DNA from: Gammaproteobacteria bacterium
GTDB taxonomy: Bacteria; Pseudomonadota; Gammaproteobacteria; SG8-11
Direction: 5' to 3'
DNA: 35,899 bases
Assembly (NCBI GenBank): GCA_013151345.1
Contig: JAADIM010000115.1
Coordinates: forward strand, 1 to 35,899
Notes under the pieces: model-generated
Told to the model about the DNA's origin: nothing
Databases searched by the model: none
Seen by the model: the letters and a program-made list of their open reading frames with translations, nothing else
Position numbers and translations under genes: made by a program
Shown here: positions 3,258 to 33,957 of the stretch, piece by piece
How the letters are laid out: each line of letters begins with the position of its first letter
Numbering within the stretch: position 1 is the stretch's first letter

Positions 3258-3273
3258 TTAAGGAGAACAGAAT

Positions 3274-3807: not shown

Positions 3808-3818
3808 GGAGAATTATT

Positions 3819-4358
3819 ATGTCAGAACCCTTTATTGCGGAAGTAAGAATGTGGGGCTGTAATTATGCTCCCCGTGGCTGGGCTTTTTGCGATGGTCAAT
3901 TATTGCCTGTCGCCGAAAATACGGCTCTATTTTCTCTTGTAGGTACGCTTTACGGTGGTGACGGTCGTACGACACTGGGCTTGCCTAATTTAACGGATCG
4001 GTCGCCGATGCAACAAGGTAGTGGACCCGGTTTGTCCAGCAGACCGATTGGTCAATTCGGAGGCACGGCTCAAGAGGTATTAGCAGAAGCACAAATTCCA
4101 ACCCATGACCATATTGTTAGAGGCGTTACAGCAGCAGGTAGCGCTGCTACACCCGCCAGCGACCTATATATGGGGCAAGATAAATCATCACGCGGCGAAA
4201 GTATCTTTTATACGTCGACAGATACGACAATGAATACAACGCTATCTGCTGAGGCGATAGGGGCGAGTGGTTCAAGTCAGGCGCATGAGAATCAGCAACC
4301 TTTTTTAGGTGTTAACTTTTGTATTGCTTTGCAAGGGATATATCCTTCAAGATCTTGA
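3819..4358 (+). CDS. Tail-collar (Mdp-like) protein 3
   Basis: The third paralogue, 179 residues, with AAGGAG upstream. Blocks in order: EPFIAEVRMWGCNYAPRGWA, FCDGQLLPVAENTALFSLVG, GGDGRTTLGLPNLTDRSPMQ, GSGPGLSSRPIG, IPTHDHIV and a C-terminal FCIALQGIYPSRS. It has Cys at residue 14 where the other two have Phe or Asn, a possible paralogue-specific feature. A strong terminator follows, so the triad appears to be one transcript separate from the sulfotransferase gene. The role is unknown; a self-assembling extracellular or receptor-type complex is an inference from the three near-equal paralogues. Confidence 0.85.
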   Translation: MSEPFIAEVRMWGCNYAPRGWAFCDGQLLPVAENTALFSLVGTLYGGDGRTTLGLPNLTDRSPMQQGSGPGLSSRPIGQFGGTAQEVLAEAQIPTHDHIVRGVTAAGSAATPASDLYMGQDKSSRGESIFYTSTDTTMNTTLSAEAIGASGSSQAHENQQPFLGVNFCIALQGIYPSRS

Positions 4359-4493: not shown

Positions 4494-5339
4494 ATGAGTT
4501 CAAGCTATCATTTCATCTCAGGTCTGCCGCGCTCAGGTTCAACGCTGTTGTCCGCGATACTGCGGCAGAATCCGCGTTTTCATGCGGGCATGAGCAGCCC
4601 GGTGACGGCCATGTTCAAGTCGGTGTTGAACATCGTCAGCGCCGGTGGTGAGTTTTCTGGACAGATTTCAAACGAAAAACGCCAACGACTATTGGCAGGG
4701 TTGTTTGACAACTACTATGCTGACTGTGACAAAGACGTGATTTTTGACACGGGCCGAGGCTGGACGGGTCAATTGGCGGCCATGAAGATCCTCTATCCCG
4801 AATCCCGTTTTATCTGCTGTGTGCGTGATGTGGCTTGGGTCATGGACAGCATGGAGCATCAGTTTCGCAAAGACCCATTCGAAAACACGCGCCTCTTTAA
4901 TGATGATGTAGAGCGTGCCAGCGTCTACAGCCGGGTTAACGCCCTGGGTATGCATAACCGCATGGTGGGCTCAGTCTGGGCTATGCTGAAGGACGCCTAT
5001 TATTCAGAAGAAGCCAATTCACTGCTATTGGTAGACTATGCGTTACTGAGTAGCGTGCCGCACAACGTGATGCCGCTCATTTACGATTTTCTCGGCGAAC
5101 AACCATTCGAGCATAATTTTGATCACGTTGAGTACGACGCTGCCGAGTTCGACGCCAATCTTGGCGTAGAGGGTATGCACAGAATTAGCGGCCCGGTAAA
5201 ACGCAACGAGCGGCGCACCATTCTACCGCCTGACTTGTTTAAGAAATATTCTGAGATGAGCTTTTGGCAAGACCAAAAGGGCACGCGTGCCCATGTGATC
5301 GCCCCCAAACGGACTGAGGTTGAAGGTCAGGGCGAGTAA
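4494..5339 (+). CDS. Sulfotransferase-family protein
   Basis: A 281-residue cytosolic protein with the 5' PAPS-binding loop FISGLPRSGSTLLSAIL near residues 7-23 and a 3'-phosphate-type block ESRFICCVRDVAWVMDSM around residue 105. These are the two hallmarks of PAPS-dependent sulfotransferases (Sulfotransfer_3-like). The family moves a sulfuryl group to a hydroxyl or amine; the acceptor is unknown. It lies between the collar triad and the giant surface protein, about 40 bases before the latter, on the same strand. The ribosome site is weak. Sulfation of a glycan or of a cassette protein is an inference. Its base composition looks more GC-rich than the collar genes, perhaps a separate origin. 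Confidence 0.75.
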   Translation: MSSSYHFISGLPRSGSTLLSAILRQNPRFHAGMSSPVTAMFKSVLNIVSAGGEFSGQISNEKRQRLLAGLFDNYYADCDKDVIFDTGRGWTGQLAAMKILYPESRFICCVRDVAWVMDSMEHQFRKDPFENTRLFNDDVERASVYSRVNALGMHNRMVGSVWAMLKDAYYSEEANSLLLVDYALLSSVPHNVMPLIYDFLGEQPFEHNFDHVEYDAAEFDANLGVEGMHRISGPVKRNERRTILPPDLFKKYSEMSFWQDQKGTRAHVIAPKRTEVEGQGE

Positions 5340-8300: not shown

Positions 8301-11300
8301 ATTACCGATGGCGGTGCCGATGTCGCCGCTGCCAGCAGTGTGCCAGTGAACGTTACCTTAACTGATAACGCTGCCAATAGCAGTGCCGCCTTTACCACGG
8401 CGATCAGCCAGGCAAGCGATGCGATTTATGCGAATATACCGGATGTGGATTTAACCGCCAGCACTAATACCTTAGCGGAAGATGGCGGCACCTCCATGCT
8501 CACAGGCACTTTAAGTGGTAGTTTAAATAACCAATGGCCGGTGGATGTGACGGTGAATCTGGCTTACACCGGAACGGGCACCATCACCACCGACTATACC
8601 GGCGCGGCGGCTATCACCGTCACGTCGGGAAATTCATCTGGCACCACGTTGATCACTAGTCTCGCCGATACACTATTTGATGCCGCCGTTGCTGAAACCA
8701 TTATTGTGGATATCGATAGCTTGTCTGTCGGTAATGAAGGCGTCACTAACCAACAAACCCTCAGCATTACCGATGCGGAAACTGCGCCAACGACAATTCT
8801 ATCCGTCGGCAATGCGTCTGTCGCAGAAAATGGCGGCACGTCTACCATTAGCGCGACGTTGAATAATGCAACCTATGCTAATGTCACCGTTAACTTAACG
8901 TATAGCGGCAGCGCAACCCCCGGTGGGACTGATTACAATACCCCAAGCTCATCCATTATTATTTTGGCTGGAGCGACGTCAGGTAATGCCGTCACCGGTA
9001 TTACTTCGGTGGATGACGTCCTCGGTGAAGGCAATGAAACTATTATTATTGATGTCGCATCGGTCATTGGCGGTAGTGCGAGCGAAAACGGCACTCAACA
9101 ACAAACCGTCACCATTACTGATGATGAAGATACGACGGCGCCTATCATCAGCGCTGTCAGCATTGCCAACAACGCGCATAAAGTCGGTGATACCGTTACC
9201 GCAACCATTACTGTTGTTTCAGATACCGAAGATTATACTGCCGGCGGCTCTATCGCCGGCACCATTGATGGTTACGCATTAGGTGCTTTAAGCAAGATTA
9301 ATAACACTACCTATACCGCCACGTTTACCATTACCGATGGTGGCGCCGATGTCGCCGCTGCCAGCAGCGTGCCAGTGAACGTTACCTTAACCGATAACGC
9401 CGCCAATAGCAGTGCCGCTTTTACTACGGGGATCAGCCAGGCAAGTGATGCGATTTATGCGAATATCCCGGATGTGAATTTAATCGCCAGTACTAATACC
9501 TTAGCGGAAGATGGCGGCACCTCTACGCTCACAGGCACTTTAAGCGGCAGTTTAAATAACCAATGGCCAGTGGATGTGACGGTGAATCTGGCTTACACCG
9601 GAACGGGCACCATCGCCACCGACTATACCGGCGCTGCGTCTATCATTGTTGTATCCGGCAGTTCATCCAACACCACGGTGATCACCAGTCTCGCCGATAC
9701 GCTATTTGATGCCGCCGTCGCTGAAACCATTATTGTGGATATCGATAGCTTGTCTGTCGGTAATGAAGGTGTCACTAACCAGCAAATACTCAGCATTACC
9801 GATGCGGAAACAGCGCCAACAGCCACGCTCTCCGTCGGCAATGCGTCAGTGGCAGAAAATGGCGGCACGTCCACCATTACTGCAACGCTAGATAACGCGA
9901 CTTACGCCAATGTCACCGTTAACTTAATGTATAGCGGCACCGCAACTGCAGCAGGTGTTGATTACAATACCCCAAGCGCGTCTATTACAATTTTGGCCGG
10001 AGCGACGTCTGGCAGTGTAGTAACGGGTATTACCTCCGTGAACGATATTCTTATAGAGGGCAATGAAACTATCATTATTGATGTTGCCTCGGTAACAGGT
10101 GGCAGTGCGACCGAAAATGTTGTCCAGCAGAAAACCGTTAATATCATCGATGACGATGCACCTAGTGTGAGTTTAAGTGTTAGCGCTGCCGCGATAGCAG
10201 AAGCGGCTGGCACAAGCACTATTACAGCGACACTAAATAAAGTCACCTTTGCCGATGTAACGGTGACCTTAGGTTATACTGGCACCGCAACCAGCGTGAC
10301 TGATTATACCAAGTTCAACACGATTACTATTCTCACGGGCCAAACGACCGGAACAGCTGTTTTAACGGCGGTGCAAGATGCGTTAGTTGAAGTTGATGAA
10401 ACCATTATTGTGGATATCACTGGCGTTGCTGGTGGTGCTGCTGTTGAAAGCGGGGTGCAACAACAAACCGTTACTATCACCGACAATAAAGCACCTGTTA
10501 ACACCGTCTTGCCCGTGATCAGCGGCAACGGCTTAGTCGGCGTCACCTTAAGTACCAATGCTGGCACTTGGACAGATGCTGAAAACAACACATTAAGCTT
10601 TACCTACCAGTGGAAAGCAGCGGCTATTGACATCGCCGGTGCGACGACCAATAGTTACACAGTGACCAATGCGGAATTGGGTGCCGTGATCACTGCTGTT
10701 GTCACTGCCAACGATGGCATTAACACCGCTGTCTCCGTCACATCGAATGCGACCGCCGCTATAGATAGTGACTTTGATAATGATGGAACAGGCGACAGCA
10801 CAGATACTGATGATGACAACGATGGCATACCTGATGTCTGGGAGACGGCCAACGGGCTGAACCCACTGGATGCAAGTGATGCCAGTGGTGATCTTGATGG
10901 TGATGGTGTGAGTAACCTCGATGAGTTTTTGGCTTCCACTGATCCGACGGTCGATGACAACCCACCTGTCATCACGCCACCTGCTGATATTACGCTTGAT
11001 GCTGTGGGACTGTTTACGCCAGTTGATATTGGCGTAGCCAGTGCTAACGATGCACTAGATGGCGCTCTAACACCAGTTTCTGATGCGCCAAGCCACTTCA
11101 GCCCCGGCATCAATACGGTAACATGGAGTGCCACAGATGCGGCAGGAAATACGGGAAGCGCCACACAAACAGTGAACGTTAATCCTATGGCTGATTTTGC
11201 GAAAGATCAACTCACCTCAGAGGGCAGTACCGTTACCTTCCGCGTTATCCTCAACGGCGATGCGGTGAGCTATCCGGTGAGCGTGCCTTATACCGTGAGC

Positions 11301-11669
11301 GGCATCGCCGCTACGGACGGCAGTGACCACGACCTTAGCAGCGGTACTGCCATTATTAACAGCGGCACCGAAGTTGAAGTGAGCTTTACTACTGTCAATG
11401 ACGGCGCGGGTGAAGGGTCGGAAAATGTCGTGCTAACTATGGGTACACCGACTAATGCGGTAATTGGTTCTAAATTTAGCCATAATATCGATATTATAGA
11501 GGGCAATGTTGCACCCATAATCAGCCTGAGTGCTGATCAGGCTGCGGTTGAAACACTTATTGTGACGCTGGGGAATGGATCAGTGAGTGTTATCAGTAGC
11601 GTGTTTGATCCGAACACGGGTGATACTCAGGGCTACGATTGGAGTGCAACCGACAACGCCATTGATTGA
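5379..11669 (+). CDS. Giant DUF4347 surface protein, N-terminal 2096 residues (frameshifted end)
   Basis: The start has AAAGGA upstream and a signal-like hydrophobic stretch at residues about 17-37. Residues about 93-245 are a DUF4347 domain (QIVFIDAAVIDYQTL, HIIAHGEEASVQLG, LLVHSCNTGRGAAG, VAASDDLTG). A unique beta domain follows (about 260-430), then cadherin-like tandem repeats with NTAPTITGT and DVDGDTLTVT signatures. Two near-identical 343-residue blocks follow, each an Ig-like unit plus Calx-beta-like units (NGGTSTI, GNETIIIDV). Next come a thrombospondin-3-like calcium region (DNDGTGDSTDTDDDNDGIPD) and a HYR-like domain. The frame ends abnormally at a TGA in GYDWSATDNAID, and the natural continuation lies in the next frame. 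Likely an exported, Ca-stabilised adhesin-type surface protein. Confidence 0.85.
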   Translation: MKNRFHSQHDGHSLLHRTAFASAIALALSPVATSHASILALSKPDVFTPETFALAVPMVALPMASIAAPLIVKAPLTVKQPHTGELQILTGGSQIVFIDAAVIDYQTLVNGLAPGAEVYLLDNQHDGVRQMAKILGRYRNVQAVHIIAHGEEASVQLGSVTFDTNTLSNNYQSEMNTIRQALAEDSDLLVHSCNTGRGAAGRNFVEELAMVTGADVAASDDLTGSTAQGADWELEISSGSIETGSPFSAAALRDFSDVLALPADNTIFDFSSFSGSGSNTLTNTYFNVTADDSTGAKPLTIYAASVAYINSATTNVTGAFFNVVADGVDVGTFQLTTVVMGDYSAAANFSGFYIKGYMSGGGTVLSTTKNGTDGVQDTFTFSGADMSNFVGVNLTSFKVFFNEDDASAIPVTDAEFRSFTTTGAAAPAPANTAPTITGTPVSVTVTEDVATDVNLSAVTFADVDGDTLTVTLTANAGTIASAGGNGVFGGVTIASSGTSAMTLAGTAANINTFLDTTTNIKYTSAANDTTSRNIAVKANDATVDSSISNITVNITAIGDTPSVTNASTDEDVQSTSGLVVTRNAADSTEVTDFKITSITGGSLFQNDGSTPITNNAFITFAQANAGLKFTPTANSSSNGSFNIQAGTDGIGGGLSAGSATATITVNAVNDDPSNGGTLPTDVIVTEDVAGNFDISGVTLVDLDAGVSNVLVTLTASAGILAATTGGSVTVGGSGTSTLTLTGTVANIDTFLNTASNIQYTGATDVNGNNAATVAVKINDGGNTGSGGGTDIALGTVNMDITAANDAPTNIALSATSINQSATGAAANVGNLTSTDIDDASFTYTLAASGTAANGLCGAGNDASNANFQITTASFETGGTLTPGSYKACIQTNDGDTTFEKTFTITVNDDAAPTISSVSIPNNAHKVGDTVTATITVASDTEDYTAGGSIAGTVAGYTLGALSKTNNTTYTATFTITDGGADVAAASSVPVNVTLTDNAANSSAAFTTAISQASDAIYANIPDVDLTASTNTLAEDGGTSMLTGTLSGSLNNQWPVDVTVNLAYTGTGTITTDYTGAAAITVTSGNSSGTTLITSLADTLFDAAVAETIIVDIDSLSVGNEGVTNQQTLSITDAETAPTTILSVGNASVAENGGTSTISATLNNATYANVTVNLTYSGSATPGGTDYNTPSSSIIILAGATSGNAVTGITSVDDVLGEGNETIIIDVASVIGGSASENGTQQQTVTITDDEDTTAPIISAVSIANNAHKVGDTVTATITVVSDTEDYTAGGSIAGTIDGYALGALSKINNTTYTATFTITDGGADVAAASSVPVNVTLTDNAANSSAAFTTGISQASDAIYANIPDVNLIASTNTLAEDGGTSTLTGTLSGSLNNQWPVDVTVNLAYTGTGTIATDYTGAASIIVVSGSSSNTTVITSLADTLFDAAVAETIIVDIDSLSVGNEGVTNQQILSITDAETAPTATLSVGNASVAENGGTSTITATLDNATYANVTVNLMYSGTATAAGVDYNTPSASITILAGATSGSVVTGITSVNDILIEGNETIIIDVASVTGGSATENVVQQKTVNIIDDDAPSVSLSVSAAAIAEAAGTSTITATLNKVTFADVTVTLGYTGTATSVTDYTKFNTITILTGQTTGTAVLTAVQDALVEVDETIIVDITGVAGGAAVESGVQQQTVTITDNKAPVNTVLPVISGNGLVGVTLSTNAGTWTDAENNTLSFTYQWKAAAIDIAGATTNSYTVTNAELGAVITAVVTANDGINTAVSVTSNATAAIDSDFDNDGTGDSTDTDDDNDGIPDVWETANGLNPLDASDASGDLDGDGVSNLDEFLASTDPTVDDNPPVITPPADITLDAVGLFTPVDIGVASANDALDGALTPVSDAPSHFSPGINTVTWSATDAAGNTGSATQTVNVNPMADFAKDQLTSEGSTVTFRVILNGDAVSYPVSVPYTVSGIAATDGSDHDLSSGTAIINSGTEVEVSFTTVNDGAGEGSENVVLTMGTPTNAVIGSKFSHNIDIIEGNVAPIISLSADQAAVETLIVTLGNGSVSVISSVFDPNTGDTQGYDWSATDNAID
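8109..10166 (+). repeat. Two tandem 1029-bp intragenic repeats
   Basis: Unit 1 starts at 8109 and unit 2 at 9138, both beginning GCGCCTA and sharing CAACGCGCATAAAGTCGGTG at an offset of exactly 1029 bases (343 codons). Each encodes one Ig-like domain and two Calx-beta-like domains. The similarity is far higher than between the other domains of this protein, so the duplication is recent and could expand or contract by recombination. Confidence 0.85.
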
Positions 11670-13606: not shown

Positions 13607-15460
13607 CTATCTAAACCTGTCTTTCAATTTATCCTTAAGTTTGTCTTTGCTTTTATCTTTTACTGCCTGGCCTTTTTCATTTTTCAACGAATCTATTTTT
13701 GTTTCAATCGATTTGATATTTTCCTCGGCACTCTTTTGCTTGGAATCCATGTTTTGCTGAATTCCGTTAAATTTTTCTAGTTGTGACTCCAGTTTTGCGG
13801 TCAGGCCTTTTGTTTTTTGCTCCACTTTATCCTTGAGCTCGTTTTCAAATGCCTGTGCTTTTTGTTTGAATTGTTCGCCCATGGCGTCTTTAACCACATC
13901 ATCCAGATTTGACGAGATATCAATATCTTGGTCTTTTATTGTTCCTTGCAAGTTAGCCTTTACATCAAAGGTTTTGACGTTCTTTAGGGCGTCGCCGATT
14001 ATCTTGGTGAGCTTGCTGGTATTTTTGTCCGAGGGCGTATCCAAAGACGTGTCCAAAGACATAACAAAGTTTGCTGACTTTACTTGTGACGCTAGATTTG
14101 CATTTAGGTTACCCTGTTTTAGTTCACCGCTTAACACAATGTCTGCTATTGCGCTATCGAGGGAAAGAGGAAATGATTGGCTTCGCGAGACAGTAAAGTG
14201 ACTGACTTTGTAGCCAGTCAGGTCTAAATTTACTGTATCAATTGAATCGTCGGGTTTTATATGATTAAAATTACCGGAGAATTTTAATTTGCTGATGTTA
14301 TCCATTTTGTCCGCGTCAAACAGAAAAGTGAGCGGGCGTCCTAGTATCTGCTGATCTGACGTGATGTCTTTTACTTCGCCGTTCATATTACCTGATTCCA
14401 GTTCTAACGAAACGCGTGTGGATTTGATTAAAAAATCAGGCAGTGGGTTGTGCTCTTTAAATTTAATATCGATGCCTTTGTGGCGCGGCACTTGTACTTC
14501 TTCACTTTGTTCTGATGTCGTGGTCTTCAACAATACGGGAGCTAATTTTTCGTACCAATCCATTGCGACACCGCTCCAATGCGTCACCGTTTCGCCGAAC
14601 AATAAACGACTGATGTTGGATAAACCGGATGACGATGGAGAATATTTTTGCATCAGACGTGCGATATCTTTTGAGGGTGCTTGTGATATGGCCTGAATAT
14701 CGTTTTTCATGAGACTGACGTCTTGACGCAATTCCTTGCCTGCACTGGTTAATTGGCCGAGGTCTGATTGTATGTTTTTCTTTATTGTATTTAATTCATC
14801 AACGGCATTGGACAGGGCTTCCAGGTCTTTTAGCTTGTTACCTGTTTTTACTGGCGTGATAGATTTTAACTTCTCTGCATAAGCATCGAATGTGGCCTTG
14901 TCCGGCAGTTCGGGTATTTTTTTATCCCATTTTTGTTTTGAGTTATCCATATTAATCTGGGCTTCTTCAACCATTTTCTCTGATTCAAGTGTTTCTTTGG
15001 CCAGGATGTCTTTTACATCGGGCATCTCGACGGCGGGCATGGAAAAATCGAATAATTCGTTTGTGTCCGAACCGGGCTCTTCAACCGGTTTTTCAGCAAT
15101 TTTGCCGGAGGTGGTGCGCTTGGTGTTTAGTCTGACTTTTTCTACATTCATCTCATCAACGATGACTTTCAGTCTTAATAGCTCTAGTGCGTGCATATGC
15201 AGCTTGATACGGCCTATCTGTACTGCATTGACCATCGGCTCTTCAGGGTTGGTTACTTGTAAGTTGTGTAATTCAACGCCGAGCGGTGACGCCGTTAGGT
15301 CGGCACGATCAAGTTCCACTTTGGCACCAACCATCTCGGTACCTGTGTGCTCAATGGCTGCTTTTAATAAAGTCTCGGCGAAAAAATAAAATCCACCCGT
15401 AAGCGCAACAGTAAACAATAAAAAAGCAAGGAGTCCGGGCCAGCGTATCCAGTTTTTCAT
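13607..15460 (-). CDS. TIGR03545-family protein
   Basis: A 617-residue protein with an N-terminal membrane helix (residues about 7-30) and a large periplasmic or extracytoplasmic body. After the helix comes an AsmA/DUF748-like beta segment (GAKVELDRADLTASPLGVEL, then LKVIVDEMNVEKVRLN). Then follow a helical middle, another beta region (GIDIKFKEHNPLPDFLIKST), and a C-terminal coiled coil rich in Lys/Glu/Gln with KDKSKDKLKDKLKDRF at the end. Length and layout fit the TIGR03545 family, which occurs paired with TIGR03546. Its start codon overlaps the TIGR03546 stop by one base (TGATG), so the two are translationally coupled. AsmA-like proteins are linked to lipid traffic between membranes; that role here is inference. 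Confidence 0.85.
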   Translation of the reverse strand: MKNWIRWPGLLAFLLFTVALTGGFYFFAETLLKAAIEHTGTEMVGAKVELDRADLTASPLGVELHNLQVTNPEEPMVNAVQIGRIKLHMHALELLRLKVIVDEMNVEKVRLNTKRTTSGKIAEKPVEEPGSDTNELFDFSMPAVEMPDVKDILAKETLESEKMVEEAQINMDNSKQKWDKKIPELPDKATFDAYAEKLKSITPVKTGNKLKDLEALSNAVDELNTIKKNIQSDLGQLTSAGKELRQDVSLMKNDIQAISQAPSKDIARLMQKYSPSSSGLSNISRLLFGETVTHWSGVAMDWYEKLAPVLLKTTTSEQSEEVQVPRHKGIDIKFKEHNPLPDFLIKSTRVSLELESGNMNGEVKDITSDQQILGRPLTFLFDADKMDNISKLKFSGNFNHIKPDDSIDTVNLDLTGYKVSHFTVSRSQSFPLSLDSAIADIVLSGELKQGNLNANLASQVKSANFVMSLDTSLDTPSDKNTSKLTKIIGDALKNVKTFDVKANLQGTIKDQDIDISSNLDDVVKDAMGEQFKQKAQAFENELKDKVEQKTKGLTAKLESQLEKFNGIQQNMDSKQKSAEENIKSIETKIDSLKNEKGQAVKDKSKDKLKDKLKDRFR

Positions 15461-15975
15461 CAGCTGCCCGCCCCCGTTAGGGATCTATAAACAGTGATCA
15501 GTTTCGAGCCTTTAATAATCTGCACAATTCGAATCTTGTTTACCCACTGTAGTAGTGAAGTTCGATACTTGGCGATTAAATAATTAGTGATCAAGACAAC
15601 GGGAATGAATAACACAAGGGAGACGAGTAAACTTCCCATGACGATCGTATTATTGAAGCGTTCCAGACGCCAGACAGTTGAATTGTACAAACTGACCCAG
15701 AGTTGGTTCATCGATTCGCTATTTAGTACACGCTGGCCAAATTCATGGAACAGCGGATCAAGCAAATAACCAATACCCGAAAACAAGGCAAAACCGAGGA
15801 TAAAAGTCGCAAGGTTGACCCTGATTACCAGCACTAACAAAATGACCAACAAGTTATGTAAACTGAATAAGGGTGTAAAACCGACAATCATAGCAAACGC
15901 CAAAGCTAGACTGATTTGAGTAGGCCGAGTTTCGGAATTGAGTACTTTAAGAAATGTTGCCAACGTATTGAGCAT
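15460..15975 (-). CDS. TIGR03546-family membrane protein
   Basis: A 171-residue integral membrane protein with hydrophobic segments near residues 22-53, 56-68 and 112-135. It has the signature TRPTQISLALAFAMIVGFTP and LHNLLVILLVLVIRVNLATF of the TIGR03546 family, related to DUF2062. It is always reported with TIGR03545, and here the genes overlap by one base. No catalytic residues are evident; it probably forms a membrane partner for the TIGR03545 protein. An ATG at 15975 follows a weak AGTAGG purine stretch. Confidence 0.85.
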   Translation of the reverse strand: MLNTLATFLKVLNSETRPTQISLALAFAMIVGFTPLFSLHNLLVILLVLVIRVNLATFILGFALFSGIGYLLDPLFHEFGQRVLNSESMNQLWVSLYNSTVWRLERFNNTIVMGSLLVSLVLFIPVVLITNYLIAKYRTSLLQWVNKIRIVQIIKGSKLITVYRSLTGAGS

Positions 15976-16327: not shown

Positions 16328-17914
16328 CTAGTCTTCCATGCATGTTTTACAATATACTGTTCCTAGGCGCACGTGATAACGCACTTTCTCGCCCACTGAT
16401 ACCTCATTATGACAGTTATCACATAAGGTGCCATATGAAAGTATAAGTTCGTCAAAGCCTTCGACCGGGTACGATATGCCTTCGATTATTTTATTCCATG
16501 GTTTTGATTTTACAATTTGCTTTCGGTAGATCTCTTCTGCAGCACGCCATCTTTTAACAAGAAATTCGGCTAACCCGTGATTTCGTAAACACGATGCCAT
16601 TAGTTCTTCGCGATAATCAAATAATTCATCCGAGATCACCATCCAGTGATGGGCATTTCGTGGACGGTCGCCAAAATAAACTTTTTCGCCAGTAAATACT
16701 TGGCGCAGAAAATTGTATTGTTTTTCTATAGCGCGCCGTTCAGTGACACCATCAAAAAACGAAGCAAGTCGCGGGTCTTTAAAAACCTGCTGATAGAAAT
16801 CAGCCAATATTTTCGTCAAAAGCGCACCTTTCTGCAAGGCATCCCATATTTCCGGATCTGGGTCTGGATAAAAGCGGGCCTCCTCGATGTGTTCCATAGT
16901 GCTGGGCATCACTGCTGATGGCTCTTCGCTGTCAGGTGCAGGTAAGTATGGATCAATATGAATTTCATCGTTAGAAGCTCCAGTGGCCAATGCTGTTTTT
17001 TCTGCTGCGTATACCATGGCAGGAATACCGCAAAGGTAAACGCGCCATCCTTCGAGTGTTGGATGTTGGGAAAATGCAATATTGTCTGCCCGACCCGCTG
17101 TATATTCTGTTATATGAGAATTTCCTGACAGACAGGGCGTGTAGAAAAAATTAGAATATTGTTTGCTCAATTCTCGAAGAGTATCTTGTAAATAAAGCCC
17201 ATTAACGAAGCGACTACCATGATAAAGTTGTATGGTGCCGGTATGTCCGTTCTGCAATGCATCGTTGATGATTCCTATCAATGGTGCTAATCCAGTGCCA
17301 GTGCCGATTAACAACAGATTTTGAGCTAATTTATTTGGATAATAATAACAAAATCCTCGTGGTCCTTGAATCTCCACCTCGTCGTTAGCCTTCAGTTCGT
17401 CAAATATCCAATTACTCATTGTCCCGTTGGGTATGCGTTTAACATGAAATTCCAAAAAGTAGTCTTTGCTCGGTACACTTACAAGTGAATAACTGCGACT
17501 AACGCCATCGGGGCGCTTCAGGTTAATAAATTGGCCAGCGTGATAGTATAGCGATGTTGCCGGCTCCAATAGAAGACGAACAATATCGGGCGCCAATATT
17601 TCTTTAGCATAAACTATCGCCGGGCTAAACATTGTCAAGCTGAATAGGTCTGCCTCTCTGGGTAGTGCGATCGCCATATCCTCTTGTGGCAGACATTTAC
17701 ACGCGAGAAAGTACCCCCGTTTTCTCAAAGAATCTTTTAGTCCTCTTTGTGCTTTCTCTGGAATAATACCTTTTTCACTGCGCAATAAACAGGTGTGACA
17801 GATTCCGCTACGGCATGAAAATGCGGTATCCACACCATGCCGTTGAAGTGTCTCTAACACTGTTTCTGTGTCACGACAATCATAGTCGGTATTATTGAAA
17901 ATAAGTTTTGGCAT
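16328..17914 (-). CDS. Ferredoxin / FAD-NAD reductase / truncated-globin / zinc-ribbon fusion
   Basis: A 528-residue four-part fusion. Residues 1-85 are a plant-type 2Fe-2S domain with C34, C39, C42 and C72 (SCRSGICHTC and LACKC). Residues about 95-325 are a ferredoxin-NADP reductase-type module with the FAD motif RSYSLVS at 140 and the nucleotide loop GTGTGLAPLIG at 204, plus YLCGIPAM at 293. Residues about 355-470 look like a truncated haemoglobin: FYQQVFKDPRLASFF, then AHHWMVIS with His422 in the proximal position. The end carries CDNC (498-501) and CKTC (522-525), a zinc-ribbon-like pair. Electrons could pass from NAD(P)H via FAD/FeS to haem, as in NO-dioxygenase flavohaemoglobins, but that activity is inference. 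The gene is followed by TIGR03546/03545 and preceded by four 13-bp repeats. Confidence 0.85.
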   Translation of the reverse strand: MPKLIFNNTDYDCRDTETVLETLQRHGVDTAFSCRSGICHTCLLRSEKGIIPEKAQRGLKDSLRKRGYFLACKCLPQEDMAIALPREADLFSLTMFSPAIVYAKEILAPDIVRLLLEPATSLYYHAGQFINLKRPDGVSRSYSLVSVPSKDYFLEFHVKRIPNGTMSNWIFDELKANDEVEIQGPRGFCYYYPNKLAQNLLLIGTGTGLAPLIGIINDALQNGHTGTIQLYHGSRFVNGLYLQDTLRELSKQYSNFFYTPCLSGNSHITEYTAGRADNIAFSQHPTLEGWRVYLCGIPAMVYAAEKTALATGASNDEIHIDPYLPAPDSEEPSAVMPSTMEHIEEARFYPDPDPEIWDALQKGALLTKILADFYQQVFKDPRLASFFDGVTERRAIEKQYNFLRQVFTGEKVYFGDRPRNAHHWMVISDELFDYREELMASCLRNHGLAEFLVKRWRAAEEIYRKQIVKSKPWNKIIEGISYPVEGFDELILSYGTLCDNCHNEVSVGEKVRYHVRLGTVYCKTCMED

Positions 17915-18217: not shown

Positions 18218-18595
18218 TTATTTTTTCAGTAATGGAATTTTTATGTAATTTTCTTTTGGGATAAACGCCTTTGCGGCTACCTTGGCTGTTTCCGCGATAT
18301 TTATAAATTCATTATGCAACACTACCTGAAGCAGGAAATCCGAGTTACATTCATACTCTCGACATGTTTGTGGCCTTTTTTCCCAGATATTACACGAGCC
18401 TGAATCACGATTCATATGAATACAAATGCCATCAGGATCTTTATCTACAAACCCTTTAGGCGTTGAGCCATCCAAAGTCTTCTCCATTTCTTCGGGGCGA
18501 AGCCGGACTAACAAGCGGCAGCAAAATGTTTGACAGCCCAGGCGCTTGCCTTCCTCGCAATCGATACAGGTTTTGTCTTGTTTCTGAATATCCAT
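18218..18595 (-). CDS. YkgJ-family cysteine-cluster protein
   Basis: A 125-residue protein with the YkgJ/UPF0153 pattern: CIDCEEGKRLGCQTFCCRLL at residues 10-29, then CIHMNRDSGSCNIWEKRPQT and CREYEC. The Cys set (C-x2-C, C-x3-CC, C, C-x8-RP-x2-C-x3-C) is thought to bind metal, probably zinc or an Fe-S centre; the family's function is unknown. It begins 23 bases after the FimX-like stop, so it is likely the last gene of the GTPase/Roadblock transcript. The shorter overlapping frame at 18456-18686 is a shadow. Confidence 0.8.
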   Translation of the reverse strand: MDIQKQDKTCIDCEEGKRLGCQTFCCRLLVRLRPEEMEKTLDGSTPKGFVDKDPDGICIHMNRDSGSCNIWEKRPQTCREYECNSDFLLQVVLHNEFINIAETAKVAAKAFIPKENYIKIPLLKK

Positions 18596-18618: not shown

Positions 18619-20694
18619 TTATGTTTCGGCGGTAAAATCATACGATAAGGTTTCATTCGGCGATTGTAAATAATCGCCTTGAACAAAATCTATTTCACTT
18701 TGCCAAAGTATAGCCATGGTAGATGCGTCGTCAACTCTTTCAGCGATCGATAAGATGCCATGCTGTTTAGCAGAGCTAAATATGGAATCAACTATTCTTT
18801 GGCTCTGCTCGCTTGTTGCTAAACTTGAAGTAAATAACGGGTCAATTTTTATATATTCTGTTTCGACAAGATTGAGAAAACCAAACAGCTCTTTCCCATG
18901 GCCCGCATTATTTATAGCCGTCATGCAGCCCAATTTTTTAAGATTGCTTATAAATGCTTTTGCTTTAGCCATTGAATTGACAATGGACGTCTCATCTAAC
19001 GCAAAAACAAGCCTATTTGCTGGAAAGTGACAAGCCTTAATCAGTTTGTTTAACCAAACCAGAAACGATTTTTCTTCTATTGATTCAGATGAAATCTTAA
19101 TGAAAAGCTGCGTATCTGTCTTTTCGATGCTTGGCAATATTTCCTTAACGGCATGTTTTATGATCCAGCGATCAATCATTGTTAACAATCCGGTTTTTTT
19201 TGCGACGCCCATAAACTGGTCGGGCATGATTTGTTTATTATCAGCATCTATCAGTCGTACTAAAACTTCATAACGCGATCCTTCTTTGCCATGGAGTGCG
19301 ACGATAGGTTGATAGAGCAAATAGAAATCATCTTGCTTAAGTGCGTTATTGATCAACTGAACCCATTTATGATCTTCTTCATCTTTTACTTTTTCGTCGG
19401 CGAGTGTATATGCATAAATTGTATTACCACCATTGGATTTTGCTACTTTACATGCCGATTCTGCTTGCGACAAAATTTTTATACCACTATCACTTTTCAA
19501 CGAAATCTGTACGATGCCAATACTCGCTGTACAAGAAAATGATTCATCCTGGATGTCAAATTTGTGTTTGATTAACGCTTTACGAACAGATTCCGCAGTA
19601 CTTGTTGCTTTTTTAATGTCCGCCTGTTTGAGCAAAATTGTAAAGATATCGCCGGCAAATCGGGCGGCGATATCTTTTTCAGTGATCTGGTTGTTGATCA
19701 AATTAGCGAAATCTTTTAATACTAAATCACTATTAACAAGTCCTATTTTTTCACTAATTGATTTAAACCCGTCTAGGTCAATATGAATCAAAGCGCTATT
19801 AACATATTTTTCGTTATCCGTTGCTGCAGCAATTTCTTCCTCCAGCTTTTCGGTAAAATAGTTTCGATTGTATAGCGCAGTTAACAGGTCTTGCCTGCGT
19901 AACTTTTCAAGTTCTTCTTTAAGTACTTGGTGACCTCTGATAACAATTTGAGTACACGGTTCACCTTCGATACTTGCGGTTGAAAAAGTCATTGTGGCGT
20001 TAAATTTATCATTGTTGTTCCGTATGGCGACGAAATTAAATTCCTCTTCCGGGTTGCTGCCCTCATCCAGCTTGCGCAGTATTTTTTTAAAATTATCAGC
20101 GTCTTCCGCAGCGATCAGGTCCATCATAGGTATGGCCTCAATTTCTTCAGCAGAGGTGAATCCGAATGTGTCCAGGTAAGCGGTGTTAGAATAAATGTGC
20201 ATACCTTCGTGTATATAAGCAACCGCATCACGGGAACTGTTCAATAGTGCCCAGTTTCGTTTCTCACATTCTTTAAAATTAGACTCTGCCTGTTGAAGTT
20301 GTTGGCGCACTCGGAGGTCGGAGAGTTCCCGATTAAGGGTTAATAATAATAAAGGATCGTTTTTACTGGGTAGGTAGTTTCTAGCGCCATTGCGCAATAT
20401 TTCGAGTTGACTTAGTGTGTTGAAATCGTCTGTAATAACGATTGTCGTAATGTCCGGTCGGGTCAGTGTAACGATATTCAGGACTTCTTTAGCGTTAATT
20501 CCTGATGTGTCATCAGACGATATTATCAAGTCCCAGGAATGCTTCTTTATCGCTTCTTTCAGTTGCTGTTCAGTATTAACGTTTTCACTTCTTACAGCGT
20601 GTCCTTCATTTTGTAGCAGACTTGTGATGTGATCTGTCTCATTTGCAGATTCTAATACTGTCAGTAGTTGTACTACATGCTCACTACTCACCAT
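18619..20694 (-). CDS. FimX-like REC-PAS-GGDEF-EAL protein with degenerate catalytic sites
   Basis: A 691-residue cytosolic protein. REC about 7-128: the phospho-acceptor position reads Ser (LIISSDD), so phosphorylation is doubtful. PAS about 145-255 (SSRDAVAYIHEGMHIYSN). GGDEF about 262-428: the active site reads AGDIF at 347-351, inactive for synthesis. EAL about 440-685: EAL is EVL at 476, the DDFG motif is NNAG at 595-598 and the ExVE motif is ERVD, so hydrolysis is unlikely; YIKID and VQGDYL remain, so c-di-GMP binding may persist. The same layout and the same EVL substitution are known in FimX, the type IV pilus regulator of Pseudomonas. AAAAGG precedes the ATG. It is the last large gene of the GTPase/Roadblock set. 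Confidence 0.85.
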   Translation of the reverse strand: MVSSEHVVQLLTVLESANETDHITSLLQNEGHAVRSENVNTEQQLKEAIKKHSWDLIISSDDTSGINAKEVLNIVTLTRPDITTIVITDDFNTLSQLEILRNGARNYLPSKNDPLLLLTLNRELSDLRVRQQLQQAESNFKECEKRNWALLNSSRDAVAYIHEGMHIYSNTAYLDTFGFTSAEEIEAIPMMDLIAAEDADNFKKILRKLDEGSNPEEEFNFVAIRNNNDKFNATMTFSTASIEGEPCTQIVIRGHQVLKEELEKLRRQDLLTALYNRNYFTEKLEEEIAAATDNEKYVNSALIHIDLDGFKSISEKIGLVNSDLVLKDFANLINNQITEKDIAARFAGDIFTILLKQADIKKATSTAESVRKALIKHKFDIQDESFSCTASIGIVQISLKSDSGIKILSQAESACKVAKSNGGNTIYAYTLADEKVKDEEDHKWVQLINNALKQDDFYLLYQPIVALHGKEGSRYEVLVRLIDADNKQIMPDQFMGVAKKTGLLTMIDRWIIKHAVKEILPSIEKTDTQLFIKISSESIEEKSFLVWLNKLIKACHFPANRLVFALDETSIVNSMAKAKAFISNLKKLGCMTAINNAGHGKELFGFLNLVETEYIKIDPLFTSSLATSEQSQRIVDSIFSSAKQHGILSIAERVDDASTMAILWQSEIDFVQGDYLQSPNETLSYDFTAET

Positions 20695-20729
20695 TGTGTA
20701 CCTTTTGCTTAATGGATTATAAATTACAC

Positions 20730-21197
20730 TTATAAATCATCTAAAAATTTGTCAAGATCGTTGTTAACAAAAACATCATGTATTTTTGTTGCCGTTTTTC
20801 TTGCGTCCAGCAGTACTTTGCCCAAATTTACATTGGGGCGAGCAACAACGGCTAATACAGCACTTGTACCAACATGAATCAATAACAAGTAACCTTCGGT
20901 TCCATCTATGAGAAGTTGCTTTAAGTTACCGCGCGCCAGTTCCTTGGCCGTTTTATCGGCCAGAGATAGCATCGAGGCGCACATTGCACCTAGTCTATCC
21001 GGATCAACGCTTTCTTCCATGACTGAGCCGACACTCAAACCGTCCCTCGTCATCACGCTTGAAGCTTCTATCTCCTTGGAGGACGCATTTAATTCACGCA
21101 ATATCGGGCGTACGCGTTTTTCAATATTTTCAGATATTTCCTTGATATTAATTATTTTCGCAGGTGATTTATTTGCTGAATCTTTTTTTCCCATCAT
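20730..21197 (-). CDS. Roadblock/LC7-domain protein
   Basis: About 155 residues. The track begins at a TTG (21212), but an ATG at 21197 or 21194 with AGAGAA just upstream is a better start. An N-terminal charged helix (VRPILRELNASSKEIEASSV) leads into a Roadblock/LC7 fold at about 45-145: MTRDGLSVGSVM, DRLGAMCASMLSLADKTAKE, then YLLLIHVGTSAVLAVVARPN and NLGKVLLDARKTA. Such proteins dimerise and act as activating or scaffolding partners of MglA-type and CvnD-type GTPases. It lies 35 bases before the FimX-like gene; about 180 bases separate it from the other Roadblock-like gene, which leaves room for another promoter. Confidence 0.85.
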   Translation of the reverse strand: MMGKKDSANKSPAKIINIKEISENIEKRVRPILRELNASSKEIEASSVMTRDGLSVGSVMEESVDPDRLGAMCASMLSLADKTAKELARGNLKQLLIDGTEGYLLLIHVGTSAVLAVVARPNVNLGKVLLDARKTATKIHDVFVNNDLDKFLDDL

Positions 21198-21376
21198 TAT
21201 TTCTCTATTCAATTCCCTGATATAAATCAGTACGACAAATTATAGTTGAAATATGAACAATATATAGCTGCGACGTCGCAACAATGTCATATCTGGATCA
21301 TTATAAACGAGGATCTGACCGTTTTGATAAGCGTAATTATCAAGACGGTCAAGGCCAATAACATGGCTGTCTTTAC

Positions 21377-21781
21377 CTAGGCTGCTTTTTCAACAGTGGG
21401 TAAACTACCGCGTGCTTTTGTCAAAACCATGCCAAGGTTTGCAGATTTGCGACAAACAAGCACCAAAATATGATCTTCATTGGCTTTGCTACGCATGAAC
21501 ACATGAATAAGGTTGTCGCTCATCACTATCATCTCCTGAAAATAATGATGACCATCGTCTGGAACTCCGCGTGATTTTTTAAACATGCTTTCAATCAATG
21601 ATACGTTAGTGCCCTGAAACATTTCGGCAGTCGCGGCTGCAACTACTTCAAGGACTTCTGCAGGGTGTGAGTCAACCGTCTTGGCGCCAAGTAACATGCC
21701 GGTACTCATATCGACATACCCGGCTGCTACGCATTCTGGCACATCAGTAACTGCTTGTTGTAGTGATTTATCGAGGGACAT
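21377..21781 (-). CDS. Roadblock-like protein, second and shorter
   Basis: A 134-residue protein with AGGAG six bases before its ATG. The pattern CVAAGYVDMSTGMLLGAKTV, a central helix (AEVLEVVAAATAEMFQG), then HVFMRSKANEDHILVLVCRK and NLGMVLTKARG is that of the Roadblock fold and ends like the other copy (N-L-G-x-V-L-x-x-A-R). The two proteins are divergent in sequence, so a heteromeric complex is as likely as two homodimers. It sits 46 bases after the ABC-phosphatase gene. The Roadblock call rests on pattern likeness and is less sure than for its neighbour. Confidence 0.7.
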   Translation of the reverse strand: MSLDKSLQQAVTDVPECVAAGYVDMSTGMLLGAKTVDSHPAEVLEVVAAATAEMFQGTNVSLIESMFKKSRGVPDDGHHYFQEMIVMSDNLIHVFMRSKANEDHILVLVCRKSANLGMVLTKARGSLPTVEKAA

Positions 21782-21827
21782 TGTATTCTCCTGTTAATTG
21801 TTTACGTTAGTGAATTAAGTCGTATTA

Positions 21828-23180
21828 TCAATGCGTGTTAACGGCTTTAACTGACCTGGTGGGGTCAATTTGATTACCAGAATCCGCCACCGCCCGAGCA
21901 AATTCCTCAAGAAATTTAACTTGTTCCTCCGATTGAACCCAACGGGGTTCAACCCGGCGTACCGTCTCTAACGCATCCAGTGCTGTATGGCCATCCCAGA
22001 TTAATTGTGTTGCCAACGCTGTACCGGTGCGTCCCATGCCTGCTTTGCAGTGCATTGCAATAGCTTCATTGTTTTCGATTAACGTCTCGACCTGTTTGCA
22101 AAGATCAATGGCTGCATCTATAGTGGGTACACCCATATCGACCACTGGGAATGCAATGCCAGCGATGTCATAGGGCGCCAGGTGCGTTGGGTCTATCGGT
22201 TCTTCTGTTAGCGAGACCAATACGGTAATGCCAACACGCTTTAACGCCTTCAGATCATCTTCTATATCAACTAGTAACCCCGGTTTTGGTGTGCCTGCCA
22301 GGACGCCTTTTTTGAGCCAAAGAAAATTGCGTGGTCCGAATGAATCACTCTTGTATTTGCGCGCTTCTTTTGGCAAAGGACGAATAAGGGGCTCTAAATC
22401 AGGGTCGATTTCTTCGGGCTTTGCATCTACCGGAGGTACAGTGCAGTTACCGTAAACGATAAAATGTTTTGTAAGATCGGATTGTGGCGATGTAAAAAAT
22501 TCTTGCGTACTAGAAACATCTTGAATCCAGCCGCCCGCCAATAAGGCGGTGTTTCCACCTAATTGTTTCGCCTGGGTTTGATTATGTAACACGATGAGCA
22601 CCGCACTTCTTTGGGACTGTTGTTCGATATACTTCAGTAAAGATTGTGCAGCTTCATCATCCAGGTCGCTGGTGGGTTCATCAATGCAAATTAATTTTGG
22701 GCTTGATGCAGAAGTGCGTAGTATTGCTAAATGCCGTTGTTGACCAAGGGGCAGATTAACCACGTTTTCGTCCATTTTCGAAACGAGTTCATCGAGCCCC
22801 GCATGAATAAGCAATCGTTCAGCAACATCGTGCTTTTGTGCCGAGGACAAGCTTTCTCGTTCCGGTAAGCCGTAAACAATATTTTCAAAAACGGTAGCCA
22901 TTAATAATTTGGCGTTCTGCGCGACGAGAACGGGCAGTTCGCCTTTAAATAATTCAGTCCCCGCGTAATAAACCTTGCCCCATGTGCGTAAACTGGGAAG
23001 GGGAGAATTCAATCCGCAAATGGTCCTTAATAAGGTTGATTTTCCGGTTCCTGCTGGCCCCATTAAGGTAAAAATGCCACGCTCAGGAATATCTAGCGTT
23101 ACGGACGCAAGTATAATGGTGTCATTGAATGCCACACCAAAACCCTGCATCGATAGAAGGGGTTCGTCTTGTTGGTTCAT
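21828..23180 (-). CDS. ABC-type ATPase fused to dual-specificity phosphatase
   Basis: A 450-residue two-domain protein. Residues 1-235 are an ABC ATPase: Walker A GPAGTGKST (41-49), Q-loop QNAK near 88, Walker B LICIDEPTSDLDD (163-175), H-loop His199. The signature motif is unusual, LPLGQQRH instead of LSGGQ. Residues about 280-435 are a Cys-based phosphatase: FGPRNFLWLKKGVLAGTPKP start, a candidate acid Asp348 (FPVVDMG), and the P-loop HCKAGMGRTG with Cys378 and Arg384. No membrane segment and no permease gene nearby, so a transport role is doubtful. The start codon follows the GTPase stop directly. Fusion of these two domains is unusual; the substrate is unknown. Confidence 0.85.
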   Translation of the reverse strand: MNQQDEPLLSMQGFGVAFNDTIILASVTLDIPERGIFTLMGPAGTGKSTLLRTICGLNSPLPSLRTWGKVYYAGTELFKGELPVLVAQNAKLLMATVFENIVYGLPERESLSSAQKHDVAERLLIHAGLDELVSKMDENVVNLPLGQQRHLAILRTSASSPKLICIDEPTSDLDDEAAQSLLKYIEQQSQRSAVLIVLHNQTQAKQLGGNTALLAGGWIQDVSSTQEFFTSPQSDLTKHFIVYGNCTVPPVDAKPEEIDPDLEPLIRPLPKEARKYKSDSFGPRNFLWLKKGVLAGTPKPGLLVDIEDDLKALKRVGITVLVSLTEEPIDPTHLAPYDIAGIAFPVVDMGVPTIDAAIDLCKQVETLIENNEAIAMHCKAGMGRTGTALATQLIWDGHTALDALETVRRVEPRWVQSEEQVKFLEEFARAVADSGNQIDPTRSVKAVNTH

Positions 23181-23717
23181 CTAGTTAATGATCCCCGGAT
23201 CTAGCGTGTAAAGAAGTGCCTGCACTAGCTGTATAACATCTTTTTCCTCTCTACCATCGATTTCTAATACCGGAATATTTAACTTATTTTCCTTTAACCA
23301 ACGATGATAATCGTTAATAGATGGAGAGGGATTCATATCCATACGTGTTATGCCGATCACGACGGCGGTCTTATCAATAAAGTCTTCGAATGCTTCGAGG
23401 AAGAATTGTAGATCGGCCATCGGATCTGGTCGCTTGTTATCAGCCAGCAATATCAGCCCAATGCCACGGTCAGTTAGAATTTCCCACATAAAATCGAAAC
23501 GATCTTGACCGGGTGTACCGTAGAGGTGAATACGCTCGCCACTATCAAGTTTCAACATGCCGTAGTCCATGGCGACCGTTGTCTTTTCTTTTCTATTGGC
23601 TGTTTCGTCAGTAGCGGTTTCTTCAGTTTTAAAAGGCTTAATATCACTAATAGAACCAAGTGCAGTCGTTTTGCCTGCGCCGACGGGTCCGGAGAATATA
23701 ATTTTATAGGCACTCAT
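23181..23717 (-). CDS. Small Ras-like GTPase of the CvnD/MglA type
   Basis: A 178-residue GTPase. P-loop GPVGAGKTT (10-18), switch I Thr46/47 in KTTVAMDYG, G3 motif GTPGQDRF (67-74), and TRMD (124-127) in place of NKxD. The pattern DYGMLKLDSGERIHLYGTPG and the TR-x-D motif match the GTPases paired with Roadblock proteins in Streptomyces conservons (CvnD) and related to MglA of Myxococcus. It is the first gene of the set and abuts the ABC-phosphatase gene, so the two are probably made in fixed ratio. The ribosome site before the ATG is weak. Nucleotide specificity cannot be proven by motif; GTP is expected. Confidence 0.85.
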   Translation of the reverse strand: MSAYKIIFSGPVGAGKTTALGSISDIKPFKTEETATDETANRKEKTTVAMDYGMLKLDSGERIHLYGTPGQDRFDFMWEILTDRGIGLILLADNKRPDPMADLQFFLEAFEDFIDKTAVVIGITRMDMNPSPSINDYHRWLKENKLNIPVLEIDGREEKDVIQLVQALLYTLDPGIIN

Positions 23718-24187
23718 CGTAAGTATTGATTCTGACTGGTAATGACAATTTCACATGGGTTCTTAAGTTTTTCCTGAAAAATTAAAGAAAGCATTTTGTT
23801 CGAACGCGTGTCCATGCCAAAAACCGTAATCTTTACAGGATGTTTGCTTTGAATACTTAAATTTGGTCTGTAGCACATGCAGTATGCTTCCGATTTACGC
23901 TAATCGCTTCTTAATCGCCATTGCATAAAAAATTATTTCATGTAGCACCTGTTGTTTCGTCAAAAAGATTATTTACTTTAGTGTTACTGTCGGAATTTTT
24001 AGAAATATATAACTATATAAGAGTACTGTTTTGGCATATAGGGTTTGGTATATTGGGGCGGAGCAGAATAAAGGATCGCTACGGAAGAATTGTCATGCTA
24101 CGGAGAAGGGTTACTTGACTCGTTGCTTATTATTATGCAGATAAATTATTAGATGCTAGCCTGTTGAATACTTGGGTTATTTACAAA
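23718..24187. other. Intergenic region upstream of the GTPase module
   Basis: No supported gene. The 65-codon plus-strand ORF at 23921-24118 has no ribosome site and an odd composition. The promoter of the GTPase module must lie here or just inside; a TTGTCA near 23750 is a candidate -35, but a matching -10 would overlap the start region, so I do not call it. Confidence 0.45.
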
Positions 24188-33255: not shown

Positions 33256-33957
33256 TCACTCATTTGCAGCATATTTTAAAAGTGGAGAACCTCGTTTTTT
33301 CAGGGCTTTGAGATAGGTAGATTCATCATATGGCTTGTTGTCTTTCCAACACCTAAAAGCAATCCTGATCCATTTAAATGCCAATGCACGAATGACAGTA
33401 TTATGGGGTTTGCCTTTGCTAATTTGTTGATCGTAATAAGCCTTCGCCCAGAAAGAATAACGAATCGTTAACCCAGCCCATTCGACGAACGTTTGCCGTA
33501 AAAATGTTGGGCAACTGTACCTCCAATGAGTCCATTTCTTTTGCCCACTCTGCTCAGTCACAGGCGCGATACCGGCATATTTCTGTAAGTCTGATGTACA
33601 GTGATAGCGTTCTCGATTTACCCCAAAGGCGACGAGTAGGTGCGGCGTGAGTTGAGGCCCGGCACCTGGAAAGCGGTTAAAAATATTTTGGTCCTCTAAC
33701 GTTTTGTAAAGCTGTCTAATTTCACGGTCCATACGATCAATTGATTCGATGAGTAATTTGAATTGAGGGATTAGCACTTCGATCATGATCCGATTGGGTT
33801 CTATTACACCCGAATCATTGGTTAAAGCCTGCGCGGATTTAATATCCGAAAACCGTTTTTCATTTACTGCAGGATAACGTGAGTTATGCTGGTTAAAGAA
33901 ATTAAATAGCGTTTGTTTGCGTGCTTTTTTGATTGCCGCGAGAGTGAAAGTTCGGGG
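33256..33957 (-). pseudogene. IS110-family transposase, C-terminal half
   Basis: The open frame extends upstream of the track's start (33786) without a stop to about 33957 (TLAAIKKARKQTLFNFFNQH, then VIEPNRIMIEVLIPQF). It contains the IS116/IS110/IS902 C-terminal domain: FPGAGPQLTPHLLVAFGVNR, LQKYAGIAPVTEQSGQKKW, and a Lys/Arg-rich tail. The N-terminal DEDD catalytic domain is missing, cut at the REP-type hairpin. It is not mobile on its own. Confidence 0.75.

Follow-up and report, generated by a model that had tools for sequence, protein, structure and literature searches.

A run of genes for a small GTPase, an ABC-ATPase/phosphatase fusion, and Roadblock proteins

We analyzed contig JAADIM010000115.1 (positions 1 to 35,899; this whole stretch of 35,899 nucleotides is here called the window) of the Gammaproteobacteria bacterium genome GCA_013151345.1, a draft that is 68.5% complete and for which genome-wide counts cover the recovered part. 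The window contains a run of genes for an MglA-family small GTPase, an ATP-binding cassette (ABC) ATPase domain fused to a dual-specificity phosphatase (ABC-DSP), two Roadblock-fold proteins (Roadblock 1 and Roadblock 2), and a FimX-like protein (Table 1). An original prediction, made from the sequence alone, had put forward these five same-strand open reading frames (ORFs) as one signaling module; all five were found on the minus strand, and the predicted spacing, with the first two genes abutting and the rest no more than about 180 bases apart, agrees with the measured gaps of 0, 46, 164, and 35 bp in the order listed above. The domain identities assigned to the fusion, the Roadblock pair, and the FimX-like protein were borne out by Pfam/NCBIfam matches, an AlphaFold2 model, and solved relatives. 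The span proposed for the full unit (18619 to 23717) was too short on both sides: downstream, it left out two same-strand genes, one for a CxxCxxCC protein (23 bp after the FimX-like gene) and one for a ferredoxin-reductase/truncated-globin protein (303 bp after the CxxCxxCC gene), and upstream, the remnant of a gene for a receiver-like partner protein, here called R, was overlooked. Based on the comparisons below, the window would encode a distinct subtype of Group 3 MglA system that recurs elsewhere and has a built-in ABC-DSP fusion, an assignment that, taken jointly with the mechanism proposed below, we hold with slightly better than even confidence.

Including the window, we identified 15 loci with an ABC-DSP fusion, which lie in Gamma- and Betaproteobacteria (several gammaproteobacterial families) and one planctomycete. 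The fusion was present in one other genome among the 143 relatives searched, in three more genomes of one further family, and, as one other full-length fusion, among 399 genomes of the phylum; two loci were reached via their GTPase neighbors, and a scan of named genomes added seven (Exilibacterium, Marinobacter guineae, Caldimonas, Planctomycetales bacterium 10988, and metagenome-assembled genomes of Gallionella, Ideonella, and a gammaproteobacterium). A plasmid search for the fusion returned none. A gene of the Roadblock 1 family follows the fusion in all 15 loci, and the proteins of the 14 other loci are 61 to 76% identical to that of the window. The GTPase gene precedes the fusion in 13/15 loci, and R precedes the GTPase gene in 11/15, comprising the stub in the window and intact R in 10 of the 14 others. 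Roadblock 2 is conserved in the module, the globin protein is encoded in 10/15 loci (the Exilibacterium tricleocarpae locus is among those without it), and the CxxCxxCC protein is encoded in 6/15, the five besides the window being L010, L011, L012, L157, and L161. Thus, the conserved gene order is R > GTPase > ABC-DSP > Roadblock 1 > (Roadblock 2) > (CxxCxxCC) > (ferredoxin-reductase-)globin, and the CxxCxxCC and ferredoxin-reductase/globin genes belong to the module. Because this order recurs in distant genomes, the grouping of the genes for the GTPase, ABC-DSP, and both Roadblock proteins is far beyond chance, the FimX-like gene excepted. A synteny search for the five-gene order, as suggested with the original prediction, therefore gave a divided answer: the GTPase, ABC-DSP, and Roadblock genes recur in order, but the FimX-like gene is beside 0/14 of the other loci. 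The planctomycete locus and that of genome G265 retain the ABC-DSP/Roadblock 1 pair alone, which supports that this pair is the irreducible unit.

Table 1. Genes and gene remnant of the module in the window
Feature	Coordinates	Strand	Basis
5' stub of receiver-like partner R	23732..23899	-	Deletion remnant
MglA-family small GTPase, Group 3 type	23181..23717	-	Small-GTPase matches and motifs
ABC-ATPase domain fused to dual-specificity phosphatase (ABC-DSP)	21828..23180	-	ABC_tran and DSP/PTP families (Pfam)
Roadblock-fold protein 1, obligate ABC-DSP neighbor	21377..21781	-	AlphaFold2 model compared with MglB
Roadblock/LC7 protein 2, MglB-like	20730..21212	-	PF03259, E 1.4e-12
FimX-like protein: N-terminal region, PAS, degenerate GGDEF (AGDIF), degenerate EAL (EVL)	18619..20694	-	
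CxxCxxCC putative metal-binding protein, accessory module member	18218..18595	-	PF03692, E 1.3e-6
[2Fe-2S] ferredoxin - FAD/NAD reductase - truncated globin - Cys4 fusion	16328..17914	-	

The GTPase has the features of Group 3 MglA

Group 3 MglA systems of beta- and gammaproteobacteria consist of a partner protein, MglA, and one or two MglB proteins (Wuichet & Sogaard-Andersen 2014, PMC4316618). The partner has a receiver-like N-terminus and a winged-helix-like C-terminus, and Group 3 MglA is marked by a G4 motif without the guanine-specificity Lys and by a D-x-R sequence in G5 (PMC4316618). The window GTPase displays G1 as GPVGAGKT, G3 as YGTPGQ, G4 as TRMD without Lys, and G5 as DGR, and thereby combines the PGQ-type G3, the Lys-less G4, and the D-x-R G5 of this group. 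In an alignment of 14 GTPase homologs, the P-G-Q of G3, which is of the MglA type and lacks the usual Asp, is invariant, as are D154 and R156 of the G5 D-x-R. The coupling to MglB expected of Group 3 is also present, as both MglB-type Roadblock genes adjoin the GTPase in the window. The GTPase had been described as CvnD/MglA-like, and of these two, the MglA affiliation was upheld by YGTPGQ and the Group 3 features. A conservon was rejected: a CvnC neighbor is absent, and G4 is TRMD rather than the NxFD motif of Group 2. A Rup small GTPase, which is uncoupled from MglB, was also rejected, as two Roadblock genes follow the window GTPase.

A survey of Group 3-like loci distinguished three arrangements, which we labeled types A, B, and C. 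Type A has the order R > GTPase > ~225-aa Roadblock > (protoglobin) > Roadblock, and type B has the order R > GTPase > two Roadblocks; several type B loci also have a metallophosphoesterase gene in convergent orientation. Type C is that of the window, with R > GTPase > ABC-DSP > Roadblock 1 > Roadblock 2 > CxxCxxCC > ferredoxin-reductase-globin. In a GTPase tree built from Group 3-like loci only, the types grouped together (2 changes versus 19 for shuffled labels), although type C was not recovered as a single clade. Group 3 MglA systems were present in 64 of 369 sampled gammaproteobacterial genomes, and the recovered 68.5% of the window's genome yielded a single such GTPase.

A remnant of the partner R precedes the GTPase gene

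A profile of 12 R proteins, run against all 776 open frames in the window, gave a single significant match (E 2e-9; next best, E 1.6), and tblastn identified the same place (E 0.002). The open frame extends from 23717 to 23899 with the homologous part at 23732 to 23842, so that ~37 N-terminal residues are left, and the frame ends in a stop codon that overlaps the start of the GTPase gene. We conclude that the local R is reduced to a stub in this genome, probably by deletion. An R-like protein is encoded elsewhere in the same genome (C40:25568-26707). A structural model of R has a receiver-like N-terminal domain and a helical/strand C-terminal part; its Foldseek matches are mostly receiver domains and are weak, none passing E 0.001.

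The fusion keeps ATP-binding and phosphatase residues but lacks the ABC signature

Walker A, the Q-loop, Walker B with its Glu, and the H-loop are kept in 15/15 ABC-DSP fusions, while the LSGGQ signature of ABC transporter ATPases is absent in 15/15. From these intact motifs, the ABC domain is predicted to bind ATP. With the signature lost, it probably cannot form a normal composite hydrolysis site, and it is therefore more likely that the domain gates the phosphatase than that it powers transport. The best NCBIfam family of the ABC half was PstB, at 146 bits compared with a cut-off of 343. In the phosphatase half, the general-acid D348 and C378 and R384 of the HCx5R(T/S) motif are conserved in all fusions, and the best matches in the PDB were the DSP proteins 25xa and DUSP23; based on these catalytic residues, the phosphatase looks active. 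The possibility of an anti-phage defense gene was rejected, as PADLOC gave weak partial ATPase-domain matches on the ABC half and nothing more; a phage-gene reading was likewise rejected, with no fitting match.

Roadblock 1 had no Pfam match. Its AlphaFold2 model (pLDDT 87) resembles the solved Thermus MglB (TM 0.72, E 7e-8), and a profile comparison of Roadblock 1 with Roadblock 2 gave E 1.3e-5 at a probability of 80%. Roadblock 2 starts with TTG in the coordinates used here; an ATG at 21197 or 21194 is equally possible.

At L109 (4377-11127), where both the GTPase and R are missing, a few genes separate the ABC-DSP/Roadblock 1 pair from two genes for PilT-like ATPases (pilT/pilU). The gene order pilT-yggS-proC is common, and this single locus was not used as evidence for a type IV pilus link.

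Globins and phosphatases recur beside the Roadblock genes

The truncated globin domain of the window protein (PF01152, E 1e-7) contains the heme-ligand His. The module globin proteins conserve this residue in 10/10 cases, together with a B10-type Tyr and, in the C-terminal domain, four Cys. The globin-Cys4 part occurs alone at L006, L011, and L012, and L014 and L018 encode ferredoxin-globin proteins without the reductase. Among the 143 relatives, the globin-Cys4 form was limited to the two genomes with ABC-DSP, and generic truncated globins with ~30% identity over the globin part alone occurred in others. The chain of a [2Fe-2S] ferredoxin, an optional FAD/NAD reductase, a truncated globin, and Cys4 is unusual, as seen in the window and at L018:12258-13118; we found no description of this fusion in the open-access literature searched. 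Downstream of the globin gene and on the same strand (13607-15975) lie a DUF2062 gene and a 617-aa gene, which overlap by one base; the latter has weak coiled-coil-type matches only, and no homologs of either gene recurred in the module loci compared.

Four other Group 3-like loci, including one in the window's genome, have a protoglobin gene between their Roadblock genes. Also, HGbRL of Methylacidiphilum, a globin-Roadblock fusion, has been proposed to be a sensor (PMC4476040). Because unrelated globins repeatedly meet Roadblock proteins, including in the HGbRL fusion, these data support a globin input to the switch. In the window's genome, positions 5538-9430 of C54 (L113, G000:C54) encode an R-like protein, a weakly Roadblock-like 225-aa protein, a protoglobin (PF11563), and a Roadblock protein up to the contig end; the GTPase is missing from its usual place before that end.

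Other Group 3 loci adjoin a different phosphatase, a calcineurin-like metallophosphoesterase. This conserved protein of ~505 aa, with the phosphoesterase at its C-terminus, is encoded convergently with Group 3 loci at L100:6113-7630, L103:8280-9854, L104:5943-7457, L182, and L184, and no homolog was found in the window's genome.

The FimX-like gene is a lineage-specific insertion

The FimX-like protein has the PAS-GGDEF-EAL architecture of FimX, with AGDIF for GGDEF and EVL for EAL, is intact over 691 aa, and has FimX (4j40 and 7lkq) as its best PDB matches. Its gene, with a GC content of 0.389, is below its neighbors in this respect and is located between the Roadblock 2 and CxxCxxCC genes. 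A second, orthodox FimX, 44% identical to the window copy, is encoded in the same genome at C44:7295-9361. In a FimX tree, the C44 copy was sister to the FimX of a same-genus genome (100/100), and the window copy formed a long branch inside the FimX group of the family. None of the 14 other module loci has a FimX-like gene next to it, and no such gene lies near the module-linked CxxCxxCC genes of relatives. Because of this absence and the orthodox FimX on C44, we conclude that the window gene is a divergent second FimX and a lineage-specific insertion present in this genome only. FimX as a conserved member of the module was thus rejected by both synteny and the tree. An enrichment of genes for cyclic di-GMP (c-di-GMP) proteins near the subtype was also considered and dropped, as such genes were found at three other loci (L006, L018, and L157), which are too few, and none is FimX.

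In Snodgrassella, pilus-dependent motility is changed by an allele of a Group 3 mglB gene (PMC11112851), and pilT is present in the window's genome; both observations support a surface output. The original prediction had suggested surface or pilus behavior as the output, and a link of the module to type IV pili is plausible.

Other genes in the window

Three tandem paralogs of ~177 aa are encoded at 2724-4358, and scans of the first and third showed a phage tail collar domain (PF07484). A sulfotransferase gene (4494-5339) precedes the gene for a 2096-aa protein with an N-terminal DUF4347 (5379-11669), and a short IS110/IS116-family transposase ORF (PF02371), probably a fragment, lies at 33256-33786.

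A proposed mechanism and its alternatives

We propose that the GTPase would be the switch and that Roadblock 2 would regulate its GTP state in the manner of MglB. Roadblock 1, based on its linkage to the fusion in 15/15 loci, may be a docking partner or bridge to the ABC-phosphatase, in which ATP bound to the ABC domain would gate the phosphatase; such ATP-gated dephosphorylation would take phosphate off a component of the switch or an effector. The heme/[2Fe-2S] protein would provide the input, a signal of redox state, O2, or NO. In the window lineage, the output may have shifted from R-dependent control to control of c-di-GMP/type IV pili via FimX, a step that we propose because R is a stub and a second, fast-diverging FimX lies in the same gene run. 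For this mechanism as a whole, including the FimX step, we consider the balance to be modestly favorable. That the module is a gas- or redox-gated Ras-like switch, in which the heme/Fe-S protein and the ATP-gated phosphatase jointly set the state of MglA and a recruited FimX has replaced the deleted R in this lineage and turned the output into direct c-di-GMP/type IV pilus control, strikes us as distinctly unlikely.

Several observations weigh against the proposed mechanism. FimX is found in 1/15 module loci, and globin is missing from 5/15 loci and the GTPase from 2/15, so that neither is obligatory. No cognate kinase gene for the phosphatase is linked to the module. The deletion of R may reflect misassembly of the draft genome or loss in a single strain, and binding of DNA by R is predicted from its fold in the 2014 paper, with the receiver-like N-terminus alone recovered here, and weakly.

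Among the alternatives, the strongest contender, which in our estimation falls somewhat short of even, is that the FimX-like gene is a passenger duplicate without functional tie and that the module works as in its relatives using the R from C40. The lack of FimX at the 14 other loci, the R-like gene on C40, and the low GC content all fit this explanation, while the tight position of the gene in the run (gaps of 35 and 23 bp on the same strand), its intact coding sequence, and its coincidence with the local loss of R speak against it. Another alternative is that of the original prediction, in which the GTPase, ABC-phosphatase, two Roadblocks, and FimX form one conserved five-part nucleotide-switch circuit. 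The closeness of the genes and the effect of Group 3 mglB alleles on pilus-dependent motility elsewhere (PMC11112851) are in agreement with such a circuit, but FimX is not a recurring neighbor of the module and has its closest kin in orthodox FimX genes of the same family away from the module, making a conserved five-part circuit improbable.

For the ferredoxin-reductase/globin protein, a purely metabolic role, as an NO dioxygenase or a reductase of peroxide or O2 that shares its regulation with the switch but is not its sensor, is unlikely, albeit with a sizable chance: the full-length form pairs reductase and globin like flavohemoglobin in the other order, but the five loci in which the reductase is missing are unlike an NADH-fed enzyme, and in other Group 3 loci the corresponding position is taken by protoglobins. 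We judge it very improbable that the ABC domain is a true PstB-like transporter ATPase with membrane subunits encoded elsewhere and the phosphatase an appended regulator; PstB is the best family, though far under its cut-off, and the Walker motifs are intact, but the signature is lost in every fusion and no transporter gene recurs beside it. Finally, with R deleted, the window copy could be a decaying, non-functional remnant, as the stub and the patchy distribution, with absence from the other family members searched, might suggest; the remaining ORFs are full length with intact catalytic residues, and we give this explanation little credence.

Relation to known systems

The original prediction held that the set was not known as described. 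The subtype with phosphatase and globin is not described in the open-access literature searched; the core of GTPase, Roadblock, and R was published in 2014 (PMC4316618), which the original prediction overlooked. In the same literature, we found no description of the module gene set, of Roadblock with protoglobin or truncated hemoglobin, or of Roadblock with FimX, and for Group 3 MglA we found little functional work and no known input. Two themes recur. In one, Roadblock genes are accompanied by globins of unrelated kinds, namely truncated globin, protoglobin, and the globin of the published fusion. In the other, the switch has unrelated phosphatases as neighbors, a dual-specificity enzyme in the window subtype and a metallophosphoesterase in another. 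If our interpretation is correct, Ras-like switches of bacteria would be coupled both to the sensing of oxygen, NO, or redox state and to the dephosphorylation of proteins, and the window would offer a natural example of a signaling module whose output has changed. The recurring switch, as judged from its gene content, suggests control of surface behavior that reads redox state or oxygen.

Like the described Group 3 MglA systems (PMC4316618), the window system has a GTPase whose G4 lacks Lys and whose G5 is D-x-R, a pair of Roadblock genes of the MglB family, and, in its ancestral state, a receiver-like R of the same kind. It differs in having an ABC-phosphatase fusion and a ferredoxin-reductase/globin, neither of which is in that description, in its Roadblock order, with Roadblock 1 first and after the fusion, and in the reduction of R to a stub. 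The polarity module MglA/MglB/RomR/MglC of Myxococcus xanthus, which is linked to type IV pili (PMC7519303, PMC9481161), also combines a small GTPase, Roadblock regulators, and a receiver-domain protein; however, its MglA belongs to another group, and the module as described there has no ABC-phosphatase or globin. Actinobacterial conservons (CvnA-D) likewise have a GTPase, of Group 2, and a Roadblock partner in an operon, whereas the window lacks CvnC, NxFD, and, in the conserved set, a conservon-type kinase. The FimX-like protein shares with FimX of Pseudomonas and Xanthomonas a PAS domain and degenerate GGDEF-EAL domains with EVL instead of EAL, but is a divergent additional copy that lies within an MglA operon. 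As in HGbRL (PMC4476040), a heme globin is tied to Roadblock, here by neighboring genes; HGbRL has a globin of another family, is fused rather than neighboring, and is without an ABC-phosphatase. Finally, flavohemoglobin (Hmp) also has a globin and an FAD/NAD reductase in one chain, whereas the window protein has the reverse domain order, a truncated globin, and, in addition, a [2Fe-2S] ferredoxin and Cys4.

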